DNA from: Microbacterium commune
Lineage (GTDB): Bacteria; Actinomycetota; Actinomycetes; Actinomycetales; Microbacteriaceae
Direction: 5' to 3'
Length of the DNA: 64,000 nucleotides
Assembly: GCF_014836945.1 (NCBI RefSeq)
Contig: NZ_JACSPX010000001.1
Span: 923,727 to 987,726, forward strand
Shown: in pieces, positions 39,908 through 48,146 of the stretch
Layout of the letters: every line of letters begins with the position of its first letter
Numbering within the stretch: the stretch's first letter is position 1
The notes under the pieces: generated by a model
Seen by the model: only the letters and a program-made list of their open reading frames with translations
The model's database searches: none
Told to the model about the DNA's origin: nothing
Position numbers and translations under genes: made by a program

Positions 39908-39950
39908 ACCGCATCCCCGAGCCGCCCCTAACGCCACCACCCCCGCCATT

Positions 39951-40014
39951 CGCTCCGGTATGAGTTTGTGCCGCCTACACCGGCATGCAGGCGGCACAAA
40001 CTCATACCGGAGCG
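39951..40014. repeat. Perfect 26-bp inverted repeat with 12-base loop
   Basis: Arms 39951-39976 and 39989-40014 are exact reverse complements (inner ends GCCGCCT and AGGCGGC); the loop is ACACCGGCATGC. It begins 20 bases after the MFS stop codon, so it could serve as that gene's terminator, but the stem is far longer than usual and no T-run follows. It could be an extragenic palindromic element. Confidence 0.9.
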
Positions 40015-40033
40015 AGAAGCGGTTCGGGCGGGG

Positions 40034-41467
40034 TCAGGAGAGCTGATCCTCGGCGTCGACATCCTTGCCGGTCGGGTCCCACCGGATGATGAGCAGCGAG
40101 ATGAGACCCGCGAGCGGCGCGAGCGCGACGATCCAGAAGACCCCGGTCGACAGCGACGTGGCGAGCACGGGGAAGAACACCAGCGAGACGATCGAGAACA
40201 CGCGCTTCACCGCCTCGTTGAAGCCGACCCCGACACCGCGCAGACGCGTGGGGTACGACAGGGTCGCGTAACTCATCAGGTTCGCCCCGGGGCCGCCGGC
40301 CTGGGCGAAGACGAAGGCGGCGAGCATCGCGATCGAGATGATCACGAGCGCTCCGGTCGGGATCCCCACGATCGCGAGGGTGAGCAGCGAGGCGGCCTGG
40401 ATGGCGAAGCCGATGATGGTCATCCGCCGCGCACCCACACGGTTGACCAGGCCGACACCGAGCAGGCCACCGGCAGCGCCGAAGCCCAGGTTGATGACGA
40501 GGGCCGAGAGGATCGTCACCAGCGGTCCCTGCTGGAAGAGCAGGGCGATGATCAGCGGCGTGCCGTAGGCGACCGCGTTGTAGCCGAAGGTCGAGAACAC
40601 CGAGACGCACAGCGCCGCGATCGTGCGGAGCCGGTAGCGGGCGGCGAACAGCTCGCCGTACTGCCGCCAATGACCGGTGCGCGCCCTGACCGCGGTGCGC
40701 GAGTCCTCGGCATCCGGAGCCAGTTCGACGTCGAGCCCGTGGTGCGAGCGCATCACGTCGACCGCGCCACGCAGGTCTCCCTGGTCGGCGAGCCACTGCG
40801 GCGACTCGGCCATGTACTTGCGCCGCACGAGCAGCACGATGATGGCCGGCACGGCACCGAAGCCGACGACCACGCGCCACAGGATGTCGTGCTGCGCGAC
40901 GGGCAGCACGAGGAACACGGCCAGCACGAGCAAGTAGCCGAAGCCGGTCGCGATGTACCAGGCCGGCGACCAGGCGTTGACGCGCTGCGAGCGGCTGCCC
41001 GAGCCGCGCAGCTTCGAGAACTCCGCGAGGAACGCCATGGCCACCGGCAGGTCGAGGCCCACGCCGATTCCCATCAGGAAGCGGAAGAAGATGAGCACCC
41101 ACTCGTTCGGCGCAAGCGCGCAGCCGATCGCCGCGACGACGAAGAACGCCATGTCGGCCATGAACAGCTTGTACCGGCCGAAGCGGTCGACGAGCATGCC
41201 GCCGAAGATCGCGCCGACCACGGATCCGACCATGATCGCGGCGTTCACGAATCCCGTCATGAGCGGGTCGAGCCCGAACTCCTCCTTGACCGCGGTGATG
41301 CCGAAGGCGAGGGAGGAGAAGTCGTAGGCGTCCATGAAGATGCCGCCCAGCGCGAGCACGATGATCGCCTTCGTCTTCGCACCCTGCGACCCCTTCTCGG
41401 CGAGCAGGGCGTGCACGTCGCGCCGGGTGCGGATCACCGTCGTCGCGGTCTTCTGGTCGAGGCTCAT
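40034..41467 (-). CDS. MFS transporter of the sugar/metabolite-proton symporter type
   Basis: 477 residues with 12 predicted membrane segments split by a cytoplasmic loop. GGMLVDRFGRYKLF after segment 2 and the charged motif near RRKYMAESPQWL match the PF00083-type (sugar and other metabolite) transporters; the conserved acidic residue in FMDAYDFSSL near segment 1 is typical of symporters. The substrate cannot be inferred, and no catabolic genes adjoin. The ATG at 41467 has no Shine-Dalgarno site; TAGCGT lies eight bases upstream, so it may be leaderless. Upstream lies the metQ stop and a hairpin, downstream the 26-bp inverted repeat. Confidence 0.85.
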   Translation of the reverse strand: MSLDQKTATTVIRTRRDVHALLAEKGSQGAKTKAIIVLALGGIFMDAYDFSSLAFGITAVKEEFGLDPLMTGFVNAAIMVGSVVGAIFGGMLVDRFGRYKLFMADMAFFVVAAIGCALAPNEWVLIFFRFLMGIGVGLDLPVAMAFLAEFSKLRGSGSRSQRVNAWSPAWYIATGFGYLLVLAVFLVLPVAQHDILWRVVVGFGAVPAIIVLLVRRKYMAESPQWLADQGDLRGAVDVMRSHHGLDVELAPDAEDSRTAVRARTGHWRQYGELFAARYRLRTIAALCVSVFSTFGYNAVAYGTPLIIALLFQQGPLVTILSALVINLGFGAAGGLLGVGLVNRVGARRMTIIGFAIQAASLLTLAIVGIPTGALVIISIAMLAAFVFAQAGGPGANLMSYATLSYPTRLRGVGVGFNEAVKRVFSIVSLVFFPVLATSLSTGVFWIVALAPLAGLISLLIIRWDPTGKDVDAEDQLS

Positions 41468-41489
41468 GAGGGTCAACGCTAGAACCGGA

Positions 41490-41527
41490 TGACGCTGCGT
41501 GACGTCACGGGCCGTCACGCAGCGTCA
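41490..41527 (-). terminator. Hairpin terminator of the met operon
   Basis: Perfect 15-bp inverted repeat (41490-41504 and 41513-41527) with loop TCACGGGC, five bases after the metQ stop. No strong T-run, as is common in high-GC genomes. It also lies just upstream of the MFS start, so it could influence that promoter. Confidence 0.65.
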
Positions 41528-44553: not shown

Positions 44554-46557
44554 TCAGTGCGCCGCGATCACCTCGAGCACGGCGGTGCCGTACGCATCCC
44601 GCTTTTTCTCCCCGATCCCGCTGATGCCGCCGAGGCCGGTCACCGTCGTCGGGCGCTGCTCGGCCAGCGCCCGCAGCGTCGCATCGCCGAACACGATGTA
44701 CGCGGGCACGCCCTGCTCGCGAGCGGTCGCCGCCCGCCAGGCGCGCAGCGCCTCGAAGAGGTCGCGGTCGCCGGCATCCAGCGAGGCGGATGCCGGGGCC
44801 TTGCGCGCACGGGCAGAACCGCCGACACGTCCGATGGTGTCCTTGCGCAGCGGCACGGGGGTCTCACCGCGCAGCACACCGGCCGCGGCATCCCCCGGCG
44901 CGAGCGTGCCGTACTCGCCCTGCGCGACGAGGATGCCCCTCGCCAGCAGCTGCCGCACGACGCTGCGCCAGTCCTGGTCGGACAGGTCGGCTCCGATCCC
45001 GTACGTCGCCATCTGCTCGTGGCGCATCTTGCGGATGCGGTCGTTCGACGCGCCCCGCAGGATGTCGATCAGATGCCCGGCGCCGAACGCCTGGTTGCGC
45101 TCGCGCTTCAGGCGCACGATCGTCGACAGCAGCTTCTGCGCGGGAACGAGCCCGTCGAAGGTGTCGGGCGTCTCGAGGCAGGTGTCGCAGTTGCCGCATG
45201 CCTCGCTGTCCTGACCGAAGTACCGCAGCAGGTTCTGCCGTCGGCACGCGACCGTCTCGCACAGCGCGAGCATGGCGTCGAGGTGCTGCCCCATCCGCAT
45301 CTTGAACGTGCGATCGCCGGGACTCTGGTCGATGAGCCGGCGCTGCTGCACGACGTCACCCAGCCCGTACGCCATCCATGCGACCGACGGCTCGCCATCG
45401 CGTCCGGCTCGGCCGGTCTCCTGGTAGTAGCCCTCGACGGACTTCGGCAGGTCTATGTGCGCGACGAAGCGCACGTCGGGCTTGTCGATCCCCATGCCGA
45501 AGGCGATCGTGGCGACCATGACCACACCGTCTTCCCGCAGGAACCGGGCCTGGTTCGCCGCGCGCACCTCGGCGGGAAGGCCGGCGTGGTACGGCAGCGC
45601 GTCGAATCCCTTGGATGCCAGATGCTCGGCCGTCTGCTCGACCGACTTGCGACTCAGGGCGTAGACGATGCCCGCGGCGCCCTCGGGCTGAGACCTGATG
45701 AACTCGACGAGCTGCCGCCGCACCTCGACCTTCGGCACGATGCGGTACTGGATGTTCGGGCGATCGAAGCTCGCGACGAAGTGCTCGGCGCGCCCCAGCC
45801 CGAGGCGCTCGGTGAGCTCCTGATGCGTCGCGCGGGTCGCCGTGGCGGTGAGAGCCATGCGCGGCACTCCGGGGAACCGCTCGGCGAGGTCGCCGAGCGC
45901 GAGGTAGTCGGGCCGGAAGTCATGACCCCACTGCGACACGCAGTGCGCCTCGTCGATGGCGATCACGCTGAGCGTCCCGCGCTGCAGCAGCTGCGTGGTC
46001 TGCGCCGATGACAGCCGCTCGGGGGCGACGTAGATCAGGTCGAGCTCGCCGGCGATGTACGCGCGCTCGACCTCACGGCGCTCGTCGGGCGCCTGGGTCG
46101 AGTTGAGGTACGCCGCACGTACGCCGTTCGCGCGGAGCGCGTCGACCTGGTCGTGCATCAGCGCGATGAGCGGGCTGATCACGAGCCCCGTGCCCTCGCG
46201 CACGAGCGCCGGCACCTGGTAGGTGATCGACTTCCCGCCGCCGGTGGGCATGAGCACGACGGCATCGCCTCCGCCGACGACGTGCTCGACGATCGCAGCC
46301 TGATCGCCCCGGAACGCGTCGTACCCGAAGACGGTGCGCAGCGCCTCGATCGCCGTCGGATACTTCGACGGCGCCGCTCCGGATGCCTGGATTCGTCCGG
46401 CTGTCGCAGCCGGCGTCATCGGTCCCTGACCCCAGTCGAGCGGAGGCTCCCAGCCGTCGGCAGGTGGGACCCAGTCGAGCTCGTCGGGCGGCAGGTCGTC
46501 GTACGGTTCGTCGGGGTACGGCACGTCCTCGTACGGGTCAGGGGAAGACGGCGGCAT
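44554..46557 (-). CDS. recQ: ATP-dependent DNA helicase RecQ
   Basis: 667 residues. 3'-5' helicase for recombination and fork repair. An acidic Pro-rich N-terminal extension of about 60 residues precedes the core: MPTGGGKSITYQ (Walker A), IDEAHCVSQWGHDFRPDY (DEAH with RecQ loop), ALTATAT and QETGRAGRDG. Four Cys of the zinc domain are in ACRRQN, then EACGNCDTC. A winged-helix region and a C-terminal HRDC domain (FEALRAWRAATA, GLGGISGIGEKK) complete the standard form. ATG 46557 has TACGCT exactly six bases upstream, so it is probably leaderless; the intervening GGAGGG is too close to act as a Shine-Dalgarno site. Confidence 0.96.
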   Translation of the reverse strand: MPPSSPDPYEDVPYPDEPYDDLPPDELDWVPPADGWEPPLDWGQGPMTPAATAGRIQASGAAPSKYPTAIEALRTVFGYDAFRGDQAAIVEHVVGGGDAVVLMPTGGGKSITYQVPALVREGTGLVISPLIALMHDQVDALRANGVRAAYLNSTQAPDERREVERAYIAGELDLIYVAPERLSSAQTTQLLQRGTLSVIAIDEAHCVSQWGHDFRPDYLALGDLAERFPGVPRMALTATATRATHQELTERLGLGRAEHFVASFDRPNIQYRIVPKVEVRRQLVEFIRSQPEGAAGIVYALSRKSVEQTAEHLASKGFDALPYHAGLPAEVRAANQARFLREDGVVMVATIAFGMGIDKPDVRFVAHIDLPKSVEGYYQETGRAGRDGEPSVAWMAYGLGDVVQQRRLIDQSPGDRTFKMRMGQHLDAMLALCETVACRRQNLLRYFGQDSEACGNCDTCLETPDTFDGLVPAQKLLSTIVRLKRERNQAFGAGHLIDILRGASNDRIRKMRHEQMATYGIGADLSDQDWRSVVRQLLARGILVAQGEYGTLAPGDAAAGVLRGETPVPLRKDTIGRVGGSARARKAPASASLDAGDRDLFEALRAWRAATAREQGVPAYIVFGDATLRALAEQRPTTVTGLGGISGIGEKKRDAYGTAVLEVIAAH

Positions 46558-46563
46558 CCCTCC

Positions 46564-46569
46564 AGCGTA
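46564..46569 (-). promoter_or_regulatory. -10 box of leaderless recQ
   Basis: TACGCT, then GGAGGG, then ATG 46557. The same GGAGGG spacer precedes the GTG of the gene at 48179. Confidence 0.55.
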
Positions 46570-46628
46570 GCCACCGGCGCCGACACCGTGGCCGGGCGTC
46601 CACAGCCGCGCGCGGACCGCGACACCTC

Positions 46629-46695
46629 GGGGGCCGACACGCCAGATGTCAGACGTACTCGCGGGGATCGTCCGACATCTGGAGTGTCGGCCCCC
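46629..46695. repeat. 27-bp near-perfect inverted repeat with 13-base loop
   Basis: Arms 46629-46655 and 46669-46695 match at 25 of 27 positions (outer ends GGGGGCCGACAC and GTGTCGGCCCCC). It lies between the divergent promoters of recQ and the cell-wall-binding gene, so it cannot be a terminator for either. Confidence 0.88.
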
Positions 46696-46771
46696 GGTCT
46701 GTACGCCCCTGGCCGTGGCGACACCACCCGGCCCGGGCCCTGGCCCGCACACCGATACGCAGCCCACCGCG

Positions 46772-46777
46772 TACTCT
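46772..46777 (+). promoter_or_regulatory. Candidate -10 box of the cell-wall-binding gene
   Basis: TACTCT, about 46 bases before ATG 46824. No clear -35. AAGGAG at 46813-46818 serves as ribosome-binding site. Confidence 0.4.
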
Positions 46778-46823
46778 GAGGGCGGGGCGCACGAACGAGA
46801 TCTGGGGCGACGAAGGAGAACCG

Positions 46824-48146
46824 ATGCCCGTGAAGACCTCCGGTCGCGTCCGCACCGGCACCGGCATCGTGATCCTCGCTGCGCTGCTCGCGACTCTGCC
46901 GCTCCCCGGAGCGGCGCCGGCGGCCGCTGAAACCCCGGTCACGGGCATCCGCACGCCGACCGCCGCACCCGACCGCCCTGCGCCGCCTCGACGCATCGCT
47001 CTCGGCGACACCGAGGTGCAGTTCACCTGGCCGGCGATCGCCGGGGCATCGGGGTACCGCATCCGCCTCACGTCGGGCGGTCAGGTGCTGCGTGTGCAGG
47101 ACTGGTCGGCGACCAACGTGTTCATCGACGGGCTGACTCCCGAGACGACCTACGACTTCAGCGTCGCCGCCGTGAACTCGTCGGGAACAGGCGCGTACTC
47201 CGCACCGGTGCGCTTCACGACCCCGTTCGACTTCGTCGAACGGCAGTTCGGTCTGGATCGCTTCGCGACAGCCGCTCGCGTCTCATCGCGCGCCTATCAG
47301 GCGCAGGGTGCCGCTTCGGCCTTCATCACCGACGGCACCACCTTCCCCGACGCCCTCTCCGCTGCAGCGGCTGCCGGTCGCGCGGGGGCGCCGGTGCTGC
47401 TCACCCGACCGACGTCGCTGCGCGAGCCCACCCGACAGGAGCTGACGCGCCTGGGCGCGGACCGAGCCTTCATCGCCGGTGGAGATGGGGCGGTGAACGG
47501 CGATGTGCAGCGCCGTATCGCCGAGATCACGACCGGCGGTGTCATCCGGCTCGCAGGGCCCGATCGTTATGCGACCGCGGCCGCGGTGTCGACACTGTGG
47601 GGTTCCGCGGCGACGGTGTACCTCGCGAGCGGACTCGACTTCCCCGACGCCCTCGCCGGAGCCGCCGCCGCCGGGTCGAAGGACTCCCCCGTGCTGCTCA
47701 CACGTGGCGATTCCCTCCCTGACGAGACGGCGAGCGCCCTCGCGCGGCTGCGCCCGGCGAAGATCGTCGTGCTCGGCGGCACGGGTGTGATCAGCGATGC
47801 GGTCGTCGAATCCGCCGTCGCGGCGACGGGGGTCAGCACCGCCACGCAGCGCCTGGGCGGCATCAACCGGTACATGACCGCGATCGCCGTGTCGAAAGCC
47901 ACGTTCCCCACCGCCGGGGTTCCGGCCGTCTACATCGCTAGCGGCCTGTCGTTCCCCGACGCTCTGGCAGGGGCCGCAGCCGCCGGGCATCGTGGCGGCC
48001 CGGTGCTCCTCACCGGTCAGAGCGCTCTGCCGACAGCAGTCCTCGACGAGATCCGGCGTCTGAAGCCGCAGCGGGTGATCCTGCTCGGTGGTCCCGCGGT
48101 GATCAGCGACACCGCGATCGCCCAGCTTCTGCCTCTCGGCCCCTGA
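46824..48146 (+). CDS. Secreted FN3 and CWB2 cell-wall-binding protein
   Basis: 440 residues. Signal peptide about 1-36 (TGIVILAALLATLPLPGAAP, cleavage near AAA-ET). One FN3 domain spans about 50-135 (EVQFTWPAIAGASGYRI, TPETTYDFSVAAVNSSG). Three CWB2 repeats follow, each with R-Y/F-x-T-A and FPDAL: RFATAARVS, RYATAAAVS and RYMTAIAVS. CWB2 repeats bind secondary wall polymers in clostridia and are common in actinobacterial surface proteins. There is no catalytic domain, so it may be an adaptor or adhesin. AAGGAG is six bases before ATG. Confidence 0.88.
   Translation: MPVKTSGRVRTGTGIVILAALLATLPLPGAAPAAAETPVTGIRTPTAAPDRPAPPRRIALGDTEVQFTWPAIAGASGYRIRLTSGGQVLRVQDWSATNVFIDGLTPETTYDFSVAAVNSSGTGAYSAPVRFTTPFDFVERQFGLDRFATAARVSSRAYQAQGAASAFITDGTTFPDALSAAAAAGRAGAPVLLTRPTSLREPTRQELTRLGADRAFIAGGDGAVNGDVQRRIAEITTGGVIRLAGPDRYATAAAVSTLWGSAATVYLASGLDFPDALAGAAAAGSKDSPVLLTRGDSLPDETASALARLRPAKIVVLGGTGVISDAVVESAVAATGVSTATQRLGGINRYMTAIAVSKATFPTAGVPAVYIASGLSFPDALAGAAAAGHRGGPVLLTGQSALPTAVLDEIRRLKPQRVILLGGPAVISDTAIAQLLPLGP

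Follow-up and report, generated by a model that had tools for sequence, protein, structure and literature searches.

REP elements are described in PMC3733652 as palindromes that have a 6-13 bp stem, a short loop and one of two tags, GTAG or CGTC; the same source describes RAYT genes with either GTAG repeats or inverted repeats of another kind at their flanks, and CGTC REPs that are without a known transposase there. Two further systems read long DNA sites. AbiEi-family antitoxins are reported to bind 23-bp inverted repeats that lie 3 or 13 bp apart (PMC7319586), and the endonuclease I-Bth0305I is described as forming a dimer on a DNA target almost 60 bp long (PMC3943268). A DUF559 Vsr-like protein of Caulobacter has been studied in another context (PMC12907096), and MTES_1575 is given as the name of a Vsr-type domain in a HEPN fusion protein (PMC3710099). 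Our search of the open-licence literature, preprints excluded, found no link between DUF559, MTES_1575 or AbiEi proteins and dispersed palindromes.

The palindrome described here lies in a 64,000-nucleotide stretch of the Microbacterium commune genome, referred to below as the window. From the sequences compared in this study, we propose that this palindrome family (F1) is probably the two-armed site of a nuclease that combines an AbiEi-like part with a Vsr/DUF559 part, in a system that resembles REP/RAYT but is built on another protein.

RESULTS

The F1 palindrome and its setting

A repeat search of the window found an inverted repeat with two 28-nt arms (46628-46655 and 46669-46696) that are 93% complementary and 13 nt apart, in agreement with the original prediction of 25 paired positions in 27 and a 13-base loop. 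In the register of the family alignment the same element consists of two 21-bp cores around 15 bases (Table 1), and the arm 1 core is an imperfect inverted repeat on its own (CCGACA-N7-TGTCGG). The copy is located between two divergent genes, with ~70 bp separating it from the start of the RecQ-like gene on one side and 127 bp separating it from the ATG at 46824 on the other. The -10 boxes that had been proposed on both sides were not recovered, as a sigma-70 scan of 46480-46900 gave no promoter-like site, which is a weak test in an actinobacterium. No Rfam RNA family matched the window above its gathering score. This copy is probably a passive site between its two neighbours. Elsewhere in the window, a perfect 15-bp stem with an 8-base loop (41490-41527) is found where the MFS gene starts, next to a substrate-binding lipoprotein gene (both named from their translations).

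Table 1. Location of the palindromes and genes under discussion (window coordinates, unless a contig is given)
Feature	Position	Strand	Remarks
F1 palindrome (studied copy)	46628..46696	none	stem of 28 with 26 pairs, loop 13
F1 arm 1 core, 21 bp	46634..46654	+	family consensus CCGACAC[G/T]CCAGATGTCGGAC, from the family alignment
F1 spacer, 15 bases	46655..46669	none	near-fixed length and variable sequence in the family
F1 arm 2 core, 21 bp	46670..46690	-	arm 1 in inverted copy
RecQ-like helicase gene, left neighbour of the studied copy	44554..46558	-	start assumed at the ATG near 46558; named from translation
Gene for secreted cell-wall-binding-repeat-like protein, right neighbour of the studied copy	46824..48146	+	named from translation
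F2 palindrome	39950..40015	none	27-bp perfect stem, loop 12
F2 copy in family register	39953-39974 and 39991-40012		22-bp arms around 16 bases
MFS-type transporter gene	40034..41518	-	stop codon ~20 bp from the F2 copy; named from translation
P0001 gene (279 aa), F1-associated	G000:C1:460655-461494		F1 ~100 bp before the gene, another 1.6 kb beyond
P0002 gene (342 aa), F2-associated	C1:1489287-1490315		F2 copies on both sides

Several palindrome families share one geometry

Genome searches of M. commune (2.73 Mb) found 21 full copies and 2 partial matches of F1, and 19 copies of F2, the family of the element at 39951. The two families are unrelated in sequence and alike in geometry: in both, inverted arms of ~21-25 bp enclose a spacer whose sequence varies. 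F1 consists of CCGACAC[G/T]CCAGATGTCGGAC, 15 bases and the inverted copy, in M. commune mostly within GGGGG...CCCCC, so that its core of 57 bp holds two inverted sites of ~21-23 bp around the 15 bp. F2 consists of CTCCGGTATGAGTTYGTGCCGC, a spacer of 15 or 16 bases (17 and 2 of the 19 M. commune copies, respectively) and the inverted copy. A third family of M. commune, F4, flanks another DUF559 gene on either side and is found in at least four other places among the matches listed. When spacers of 4-30 bases were allowed in a scan for F1 (117 rows, from which 5 were removed as off-register readings of self-complementary arms), the spacer was 15 bases long in 109 of 112 elements; the exceptions were 10 (one element of genome G259), 16 (one of G034) and 26 bases (one decayed M. 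commune element). A partly conserved YGT[A/C] stretch is present a few bases outside both arms of the M. commune F1 copies and is weaker in other genomes.

In 464 kb of M. commune (the window and 20 systematic 20-kb stretches) only four hairpins had a stem of at least 24, two of them F1 and two F2, with loops of 12-17, and the other perfect stems of at least 18 numbered four, with loops of 3-7. The original prediction of a class of intergenic palindromes defined by geometry was set against two alternatives, namely that no further elements of this size exist or that such stems are equally frequent in randomised sequence. Neither was found: further copies are present in the numbers given above, and 12 hairpins scored at least 16 as compared to none in ten third-order Markov replicates. 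The class can thus be upheld, with F1, F2 and F4 as members of unrelated sequence in one genome and others in relatives. Among the roles that had been suggested for it, a protein binding site and a miniature element fit best.

Exact F1 cores occurred in 38 stretches, 37 of them from Microbacterium records and one labelled Actinomycetales bacterium, and no F1 match was found in phage, plasmid or viral sequences. The distribution is patchy: F1 was matched in 92 of 247 congener genomes and unmatched in 155, with up to 20 candidates scored per genome and every genome that was not positive taken as negative. Some copies have identical spacers, which points to copying.

Some copies have an unusual structure. 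Two F1 copies lie in a ~118-bp direct duplication (L082, G000:C1:749251-749436), both with the same altered inner arm. At four loci of G033 (L122, L119, L117 and L120) one side of the F1 element has a replaced mid-arm, with the outer GGGGGC and the inner TGTCGGAC mostly kept, which looks as if half-sites had been exchanged. Relatives also carry a different palindromic repeat, CTTCGACAAGCTCAG... (L105:19653-19702, L108:14911-14959 and L221:5178-5239), which we take to be widespread in bacteria.

The arms are held while the spacer drifts

Among the 21 F1 copies of M. commune, the mean pairwise difference was 5.7% in the arms and 43% in the spacer. F1 is also found in the same interval in different species, and we compared arms, spacer and outer flank at such orthologous sites. 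The differences were 13%, 41% and 60%, respectively, at site 1 (four species, without G021, whose arms are altered, and G005, which has no F1 there), 7%, 53% and 56% at site 3 (five species), and 5%, 67% and 46% at site 5 (two species). Arms thus differ far less than the spacer or the flank, indicating that they are held while their surroundings drift. In G005, site 1 carries an ordinary short-loop hairpin where the other species have F1. At site 3, position 8 of the arm is T in at least one arm of M. commune and G094 and G in three other species; T at this position is also found in most M. commune F1 copies, and this match suggests concerted change.

Some arms have changed symmetrically at orthologous sites, and pairing or arm-to-arm conversion may lie behind these changes. 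We considered an RNA hairpin under selection for pairing, for which the case is weak: paired cells and the covariation score exceeded most shuffles but two-sided changes did not, and several columns are often unpaired in 40 aligned elements. Variation of the spacer through cut-and-join repair is unlikely because the spacer hardly varies in length. No clean target-site duplication, exact empty site or clean insertion boundary was found in five aligned orthologous sites. Two F1 copies, L218:4705-4771 and L180:14308-14365, overlap a called reading frame or are contained in one, and the aligned intervals are common to other species.

Genomic position of the copies

We classified the surroundings of 36 copies (18 of the 21 F1 and 18 of the 19 F2; two F1 copies overlapped a gene call) with a simple purpose-made gene caller. 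Convergent genes flanked 18 of the 36 copies as compared to 20 of 145 intergenic regions (P = 1e-5), and divergent genes only 3 of 36, the copy at 46629 among them, as compared to 45 of 145. This means that the predicted location between divergent genes holds for that copy but is not typical of the copies. The convergent setting, like the ordinary hairpin that replaces F1 at site 1 of G005, would suit bidirectional transcription terminators or 3'-end RNA hairpins. Termination, however, requires neither a single conserved arm sequence nor a 15-base spacer of almost fixed length, pairing fails at several variable positions, and the copy at 46629 lies upstream of both its neighbours. We regard terminators as unlikely, with termination a possible by-function of the palindromes.

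The copies are also distributed unevenly along the chromosome. The F1 and F2 copies on contig C1 of M. commune (20 and 18, respectively; contigs C2 and C3 were not placed relative to the origin) had a median distance of 262 kb from dnaA as compared to 497 kb expected (P = 0.00055), a bias that was moderate after clusters had been thinned (P = 0.02 and 0.05). In G034, 8 of 9 copies lie in the origin-proximal quarter, and in G021, 11 of 13 copies among the matches listed lie in the half nearer to the origin. Such a bias in three genomes could indicate an origin-proximal site by which the host organises its chromosome, read by the proposed nuclease or by another DNA-binding protein. This is quite improbable, as F1 has no match in 155 of the 247 congeners and the arm sequences vary between relatives, and as the bias itself is moderate after thinning, leaves C2 and C3 unplaced and is not seen for two of the seven G005 copies, which are 1.48 Mb away from the origin. 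Nor does the bias amount to evidence of insulation, so that the domain insulator among the suggested roles gains no support from it. Among the matches listed, F1 and F2 are confined to G000 C1:357842-1708038 apart from a single copy of either family close to the beginning of C2; no copy is listed for the remainder of C1, for the greater part of C2 or anywhere on C3.

Palindromes bracket genes for predicted DUF559 nucleases

The P0001 and P0002 genes of M. commune have palindromes nearby (Table 1), and similar arrangements are present in relatives. F1 closely brackets the P0001 orthologue in G005, where the second copy is incomplete, and in G195, where the two copies are identical, spacer included. 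It lies close by on both sides of the gene in M. paraoxydans and on both sides, at a contig edge, in M. bovistercoris, while in G033 and G089 one F1 copy is close to the gene and the other ~1.5 kb away.

We then counted matched pairs, defined as a palindrome on each side of the gene within 350 bp with matching arms. A matched pair was present at 22 of 87 homologue loci, which were best matches by protein similarity and not a random sample and which include the M. commune loci that prompted the idea. The controls, 301 genes of comparable size, gave one pair, at the G005 nuclease; as two of these controls proved to be such nucleases, the figure for other genes is 0 of 299. At least one palindrome was found at 51 of the 87 loci versus 34 of the 301 controls. 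With P0002 as the query, matched pairs occurred at 9 of 30 loci in 59 Microbacterium genomes and at 10 of 27 loci in 149 genomes of the order, nine of these ten being outside Microbacterium, in five GTDB families; with P0001 they occurred at 3 of 30 loci in 59 Microbacterium genomes. Homologues were present in 97 of the 149 genomes of the order. Two of the pairs are less certain: that of L301 resembles an ordinary GCGGATGCCGC terminator and is maybe a false positive, and that of L272 is borderline (score 11). No pair of this kind was detected within 350 bp at the remaining 65 loci. The same applies to three of the six M. commune DUF559 genes (one of the three has a single weak palindrome), and the P0001 homologue of G034 has no palindrome nearby even though this genome is rich in F1.

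The arm sequences beside the nuclease genes differ from locus to locus. At 29 loci chosen for having a palindrome, protein identity tracked arm similarity to some extent (Mantel rho 0.198, with 7 of 2000 permutations as high). The palindromes also recur away from the gene. We used 15 gene-adjacent palindromes (without L263 and L316) as a joined query in their 15 genomes, and among the matches listed they recurred away from the gene in 13 of the 15. Each genome gave between 3 and 48 rows when both strands are counted, and one of the rows listed crosses to the palindrome of another genome. In G033 (family F3) and G005 the matches listed were the gene-side copies only. Furthermore, a close P0001 homologue (at least 300 bits) was found in 12 of 13 F1-rich genomes (at least 4 rows) and in 5 of 46 others (P = 6e-8, with no phylogenetic correction). 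The F1 nuclease locus between fumC and phoH is common to many species by descent, so its occurrences are not independent cases.

At locus L226, M. commune has a P0001 paralogue between two conserved genes, and in G087, G034 and Microbacterium sp. MYb62 these genes enclose a solo F1-type palindrome instead. This contrast fits the arrival of a gene at the palindrome or its loss from there, in either direction. The flanks of the paralogue hold 7 F1-type half-sites in 497 bp as compared to 12 in 400 kb, counted with a motif that was picked after the region had been viewed. The half-sites (CAGATGTCGG / CCGACATCCG) form an array around the DUF559 gene (L226:660-997 and 1830-1990), one of them near the start codon, and are possibly operators.

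These data also bear on whether the palindromes could be selfish elements, REP- or MITE-like, that are moved by another transposase, with the DUF559 genes as passengers or preferred neighbours. F1 is indeed multi-copy, intergenic, mostly 3' of genes and patchy (92 of 247 genomes), and the identical spacers of some copies speak for copying. On the other hand, genes of one protein family are accompanied by different palindrome families, and this across several bacterial families, and the arms are constrained at old orthologous sites where the spacer drifts, unlike in dead transposon copies. M. commune also has no Y1/RAYT gene, the one kind of transposase that was sought: PF01797 gave 0 matches in M. 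commune at E<=1, while the control matched in 10 of 14 genomes, and we rejected RAYT/Y1 as the mobiliser. Selfish palindromes of this kind are therefore unlikely.

Domains and predicted folds

According to Pfam, P0001, P0003 and P0004 have an N-terminal domain of the AbiEi_4 type (PF13338, above the cut-off) and a C-terminal DUF559 domain. For P0002 both domain scores were below the cut-offs; 38 of its 41 aligned homologues match DUF559. AlphaFold models had pLDDT values of 93.7 and 93.6. In Foldseek searches with P0001, AbiEi (6y8q) ranked first (E = 2e-5), and matches were also obtained to the Vsr endonuclease 1cw0 (E = 0.007) and to the homing endonuclease I-Bth0305I (3r3p, E = 0.04, TMt 0.75). 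With P0002, 3r3p ranked first at E = 0.018, no match reached E = 0.001 and 6y8q was not listed. Profile searches matched 3hrl and 3r3p. The candidate catalytic residues, which we assigned ourselves, are invariant or nearly so, and together with the models they argue for a Vsr-like PD-(D/E)XK fold with conserved acidic/His residues. PADLOC returned weak AbiEi matches and one weak ZorE match. No AbiEii-like toxin was recognised beside the genes when the neighbours in L087 and L177 were read by eye.

DISCUSSION

We propose the following model for F1. Two protomers of the nuclease would each read one inverted arm of ~21-25 bp, with an AbiEi-like module on each arm, and the two nuclease domains would then be placed over the 15-bp spacer. 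Reading of this kind would account for the conserved arms, for a spacer of fixed length and free sequence, and for arms that differ among species along with the protein. The element at 46629 would be a solo copy of the cognate site, and the nuclease gene would be the one found at another place in the genome, with palindrome copies on one or both sides. Conditional nicking or cutting at the palindrome could give rise to copies of it elsewhere, sometimes as a palindrome-gene-palindrome unit. TnpA-REP acts on single strands. Simple cutting of duplex DNA would endanger a genome that holds the nuclease gene together with ~20 intact sites, so the activity would have to be conditional, limited to nicking, directed to single strands or cruciforms, or absent.

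A wider reading is that AbiEi-Vsr (DUF559) proteins are natural TALEN-like dimeric nucleases, with paralogue-specific half-sites of ~21-25 bp and a spacer of ~15 bp that is nicked or cut, and that with their palindromes, which would co-diverge with them, they form a new class of two-component repetitive element that is widespread in Micrococcales. We put this forward tentatively, as a serious possibility that falls somewhat short of being probable. If the proteins do read such half-sites, the families would amount to a natural library and record of long-site DNA recognition. Under the model, a class of chromosomal palindromes gains a partner, a geometry and a testable biochemistry, and the large DUF559 family of unknown function gains a proposed target.

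How does this system compare with those already described? In common with AbiEi and Rv2827c (AbiE, a type IV toxin-antitoxin system), the proteins are predicted to have the N-terminal fold, and AbiEi sites are reported as 23-bp inverted repeats with gaps of 3 or 13 bp (PMC7319586); unlike in AbiE, the module is fused to a nuclease and the sites are dispersed over the chromosome. The predicted nuclease fold is that of the EDxHD homing endonuclease I-Bth0305I (3r3p, TMt 0.75), for which a long target read by a dimer is described (PMC3943268). That one species has the gene where three others have a solo palindrome is at most suggestive of homing. The gene is free-standing and chromosomal, the DNA-binding part is AbiEi-like and many intact sites coexist with the gene, which sets it apart from I-Bth0305I. 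MITEs are likewise short, non-coding and multi-copy with long inverted arms; however, the spacer of the palindromes varies freely between copies, no clean target-site duplication was seen in the five aligned sites and no parent transposase is known (Y1 alone was sought).

The closest likeness in arrangement is to REP/RAYT: the palindromes are extragenic, dispersed and mostly 3' of genes, a genome can hold several families of them, and palindromes with dispersed copies can bracket a cognate nuclease gene, the nuclease being a different one. REPs are given stems of 6-13 bp and short loops in PMC3733652, while the palindromes studied here have arms of 21-28 bp and a 15-base spacer. As to the GTAG or CGTC tag of REPs, the flank columns hold no GTAG, and the YGT[A/C] stretch of the M. 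commune F1 copies lies outside both arms. M. commune has no Y1/HUH protein; the protein is AbiEi-like with a Vsr/DUF559 part. As the elements share the life-style of REPs but not their size or protein, we do not class them as REPs. The bracketing of the gene for this predicted nuclease, which is frequent in related bacteria, points to an undescribed repeat-plus-nuclease genetic element. A relation like that of REP and RAYT, it would seem, is possible with an unrelated nuclease as well.
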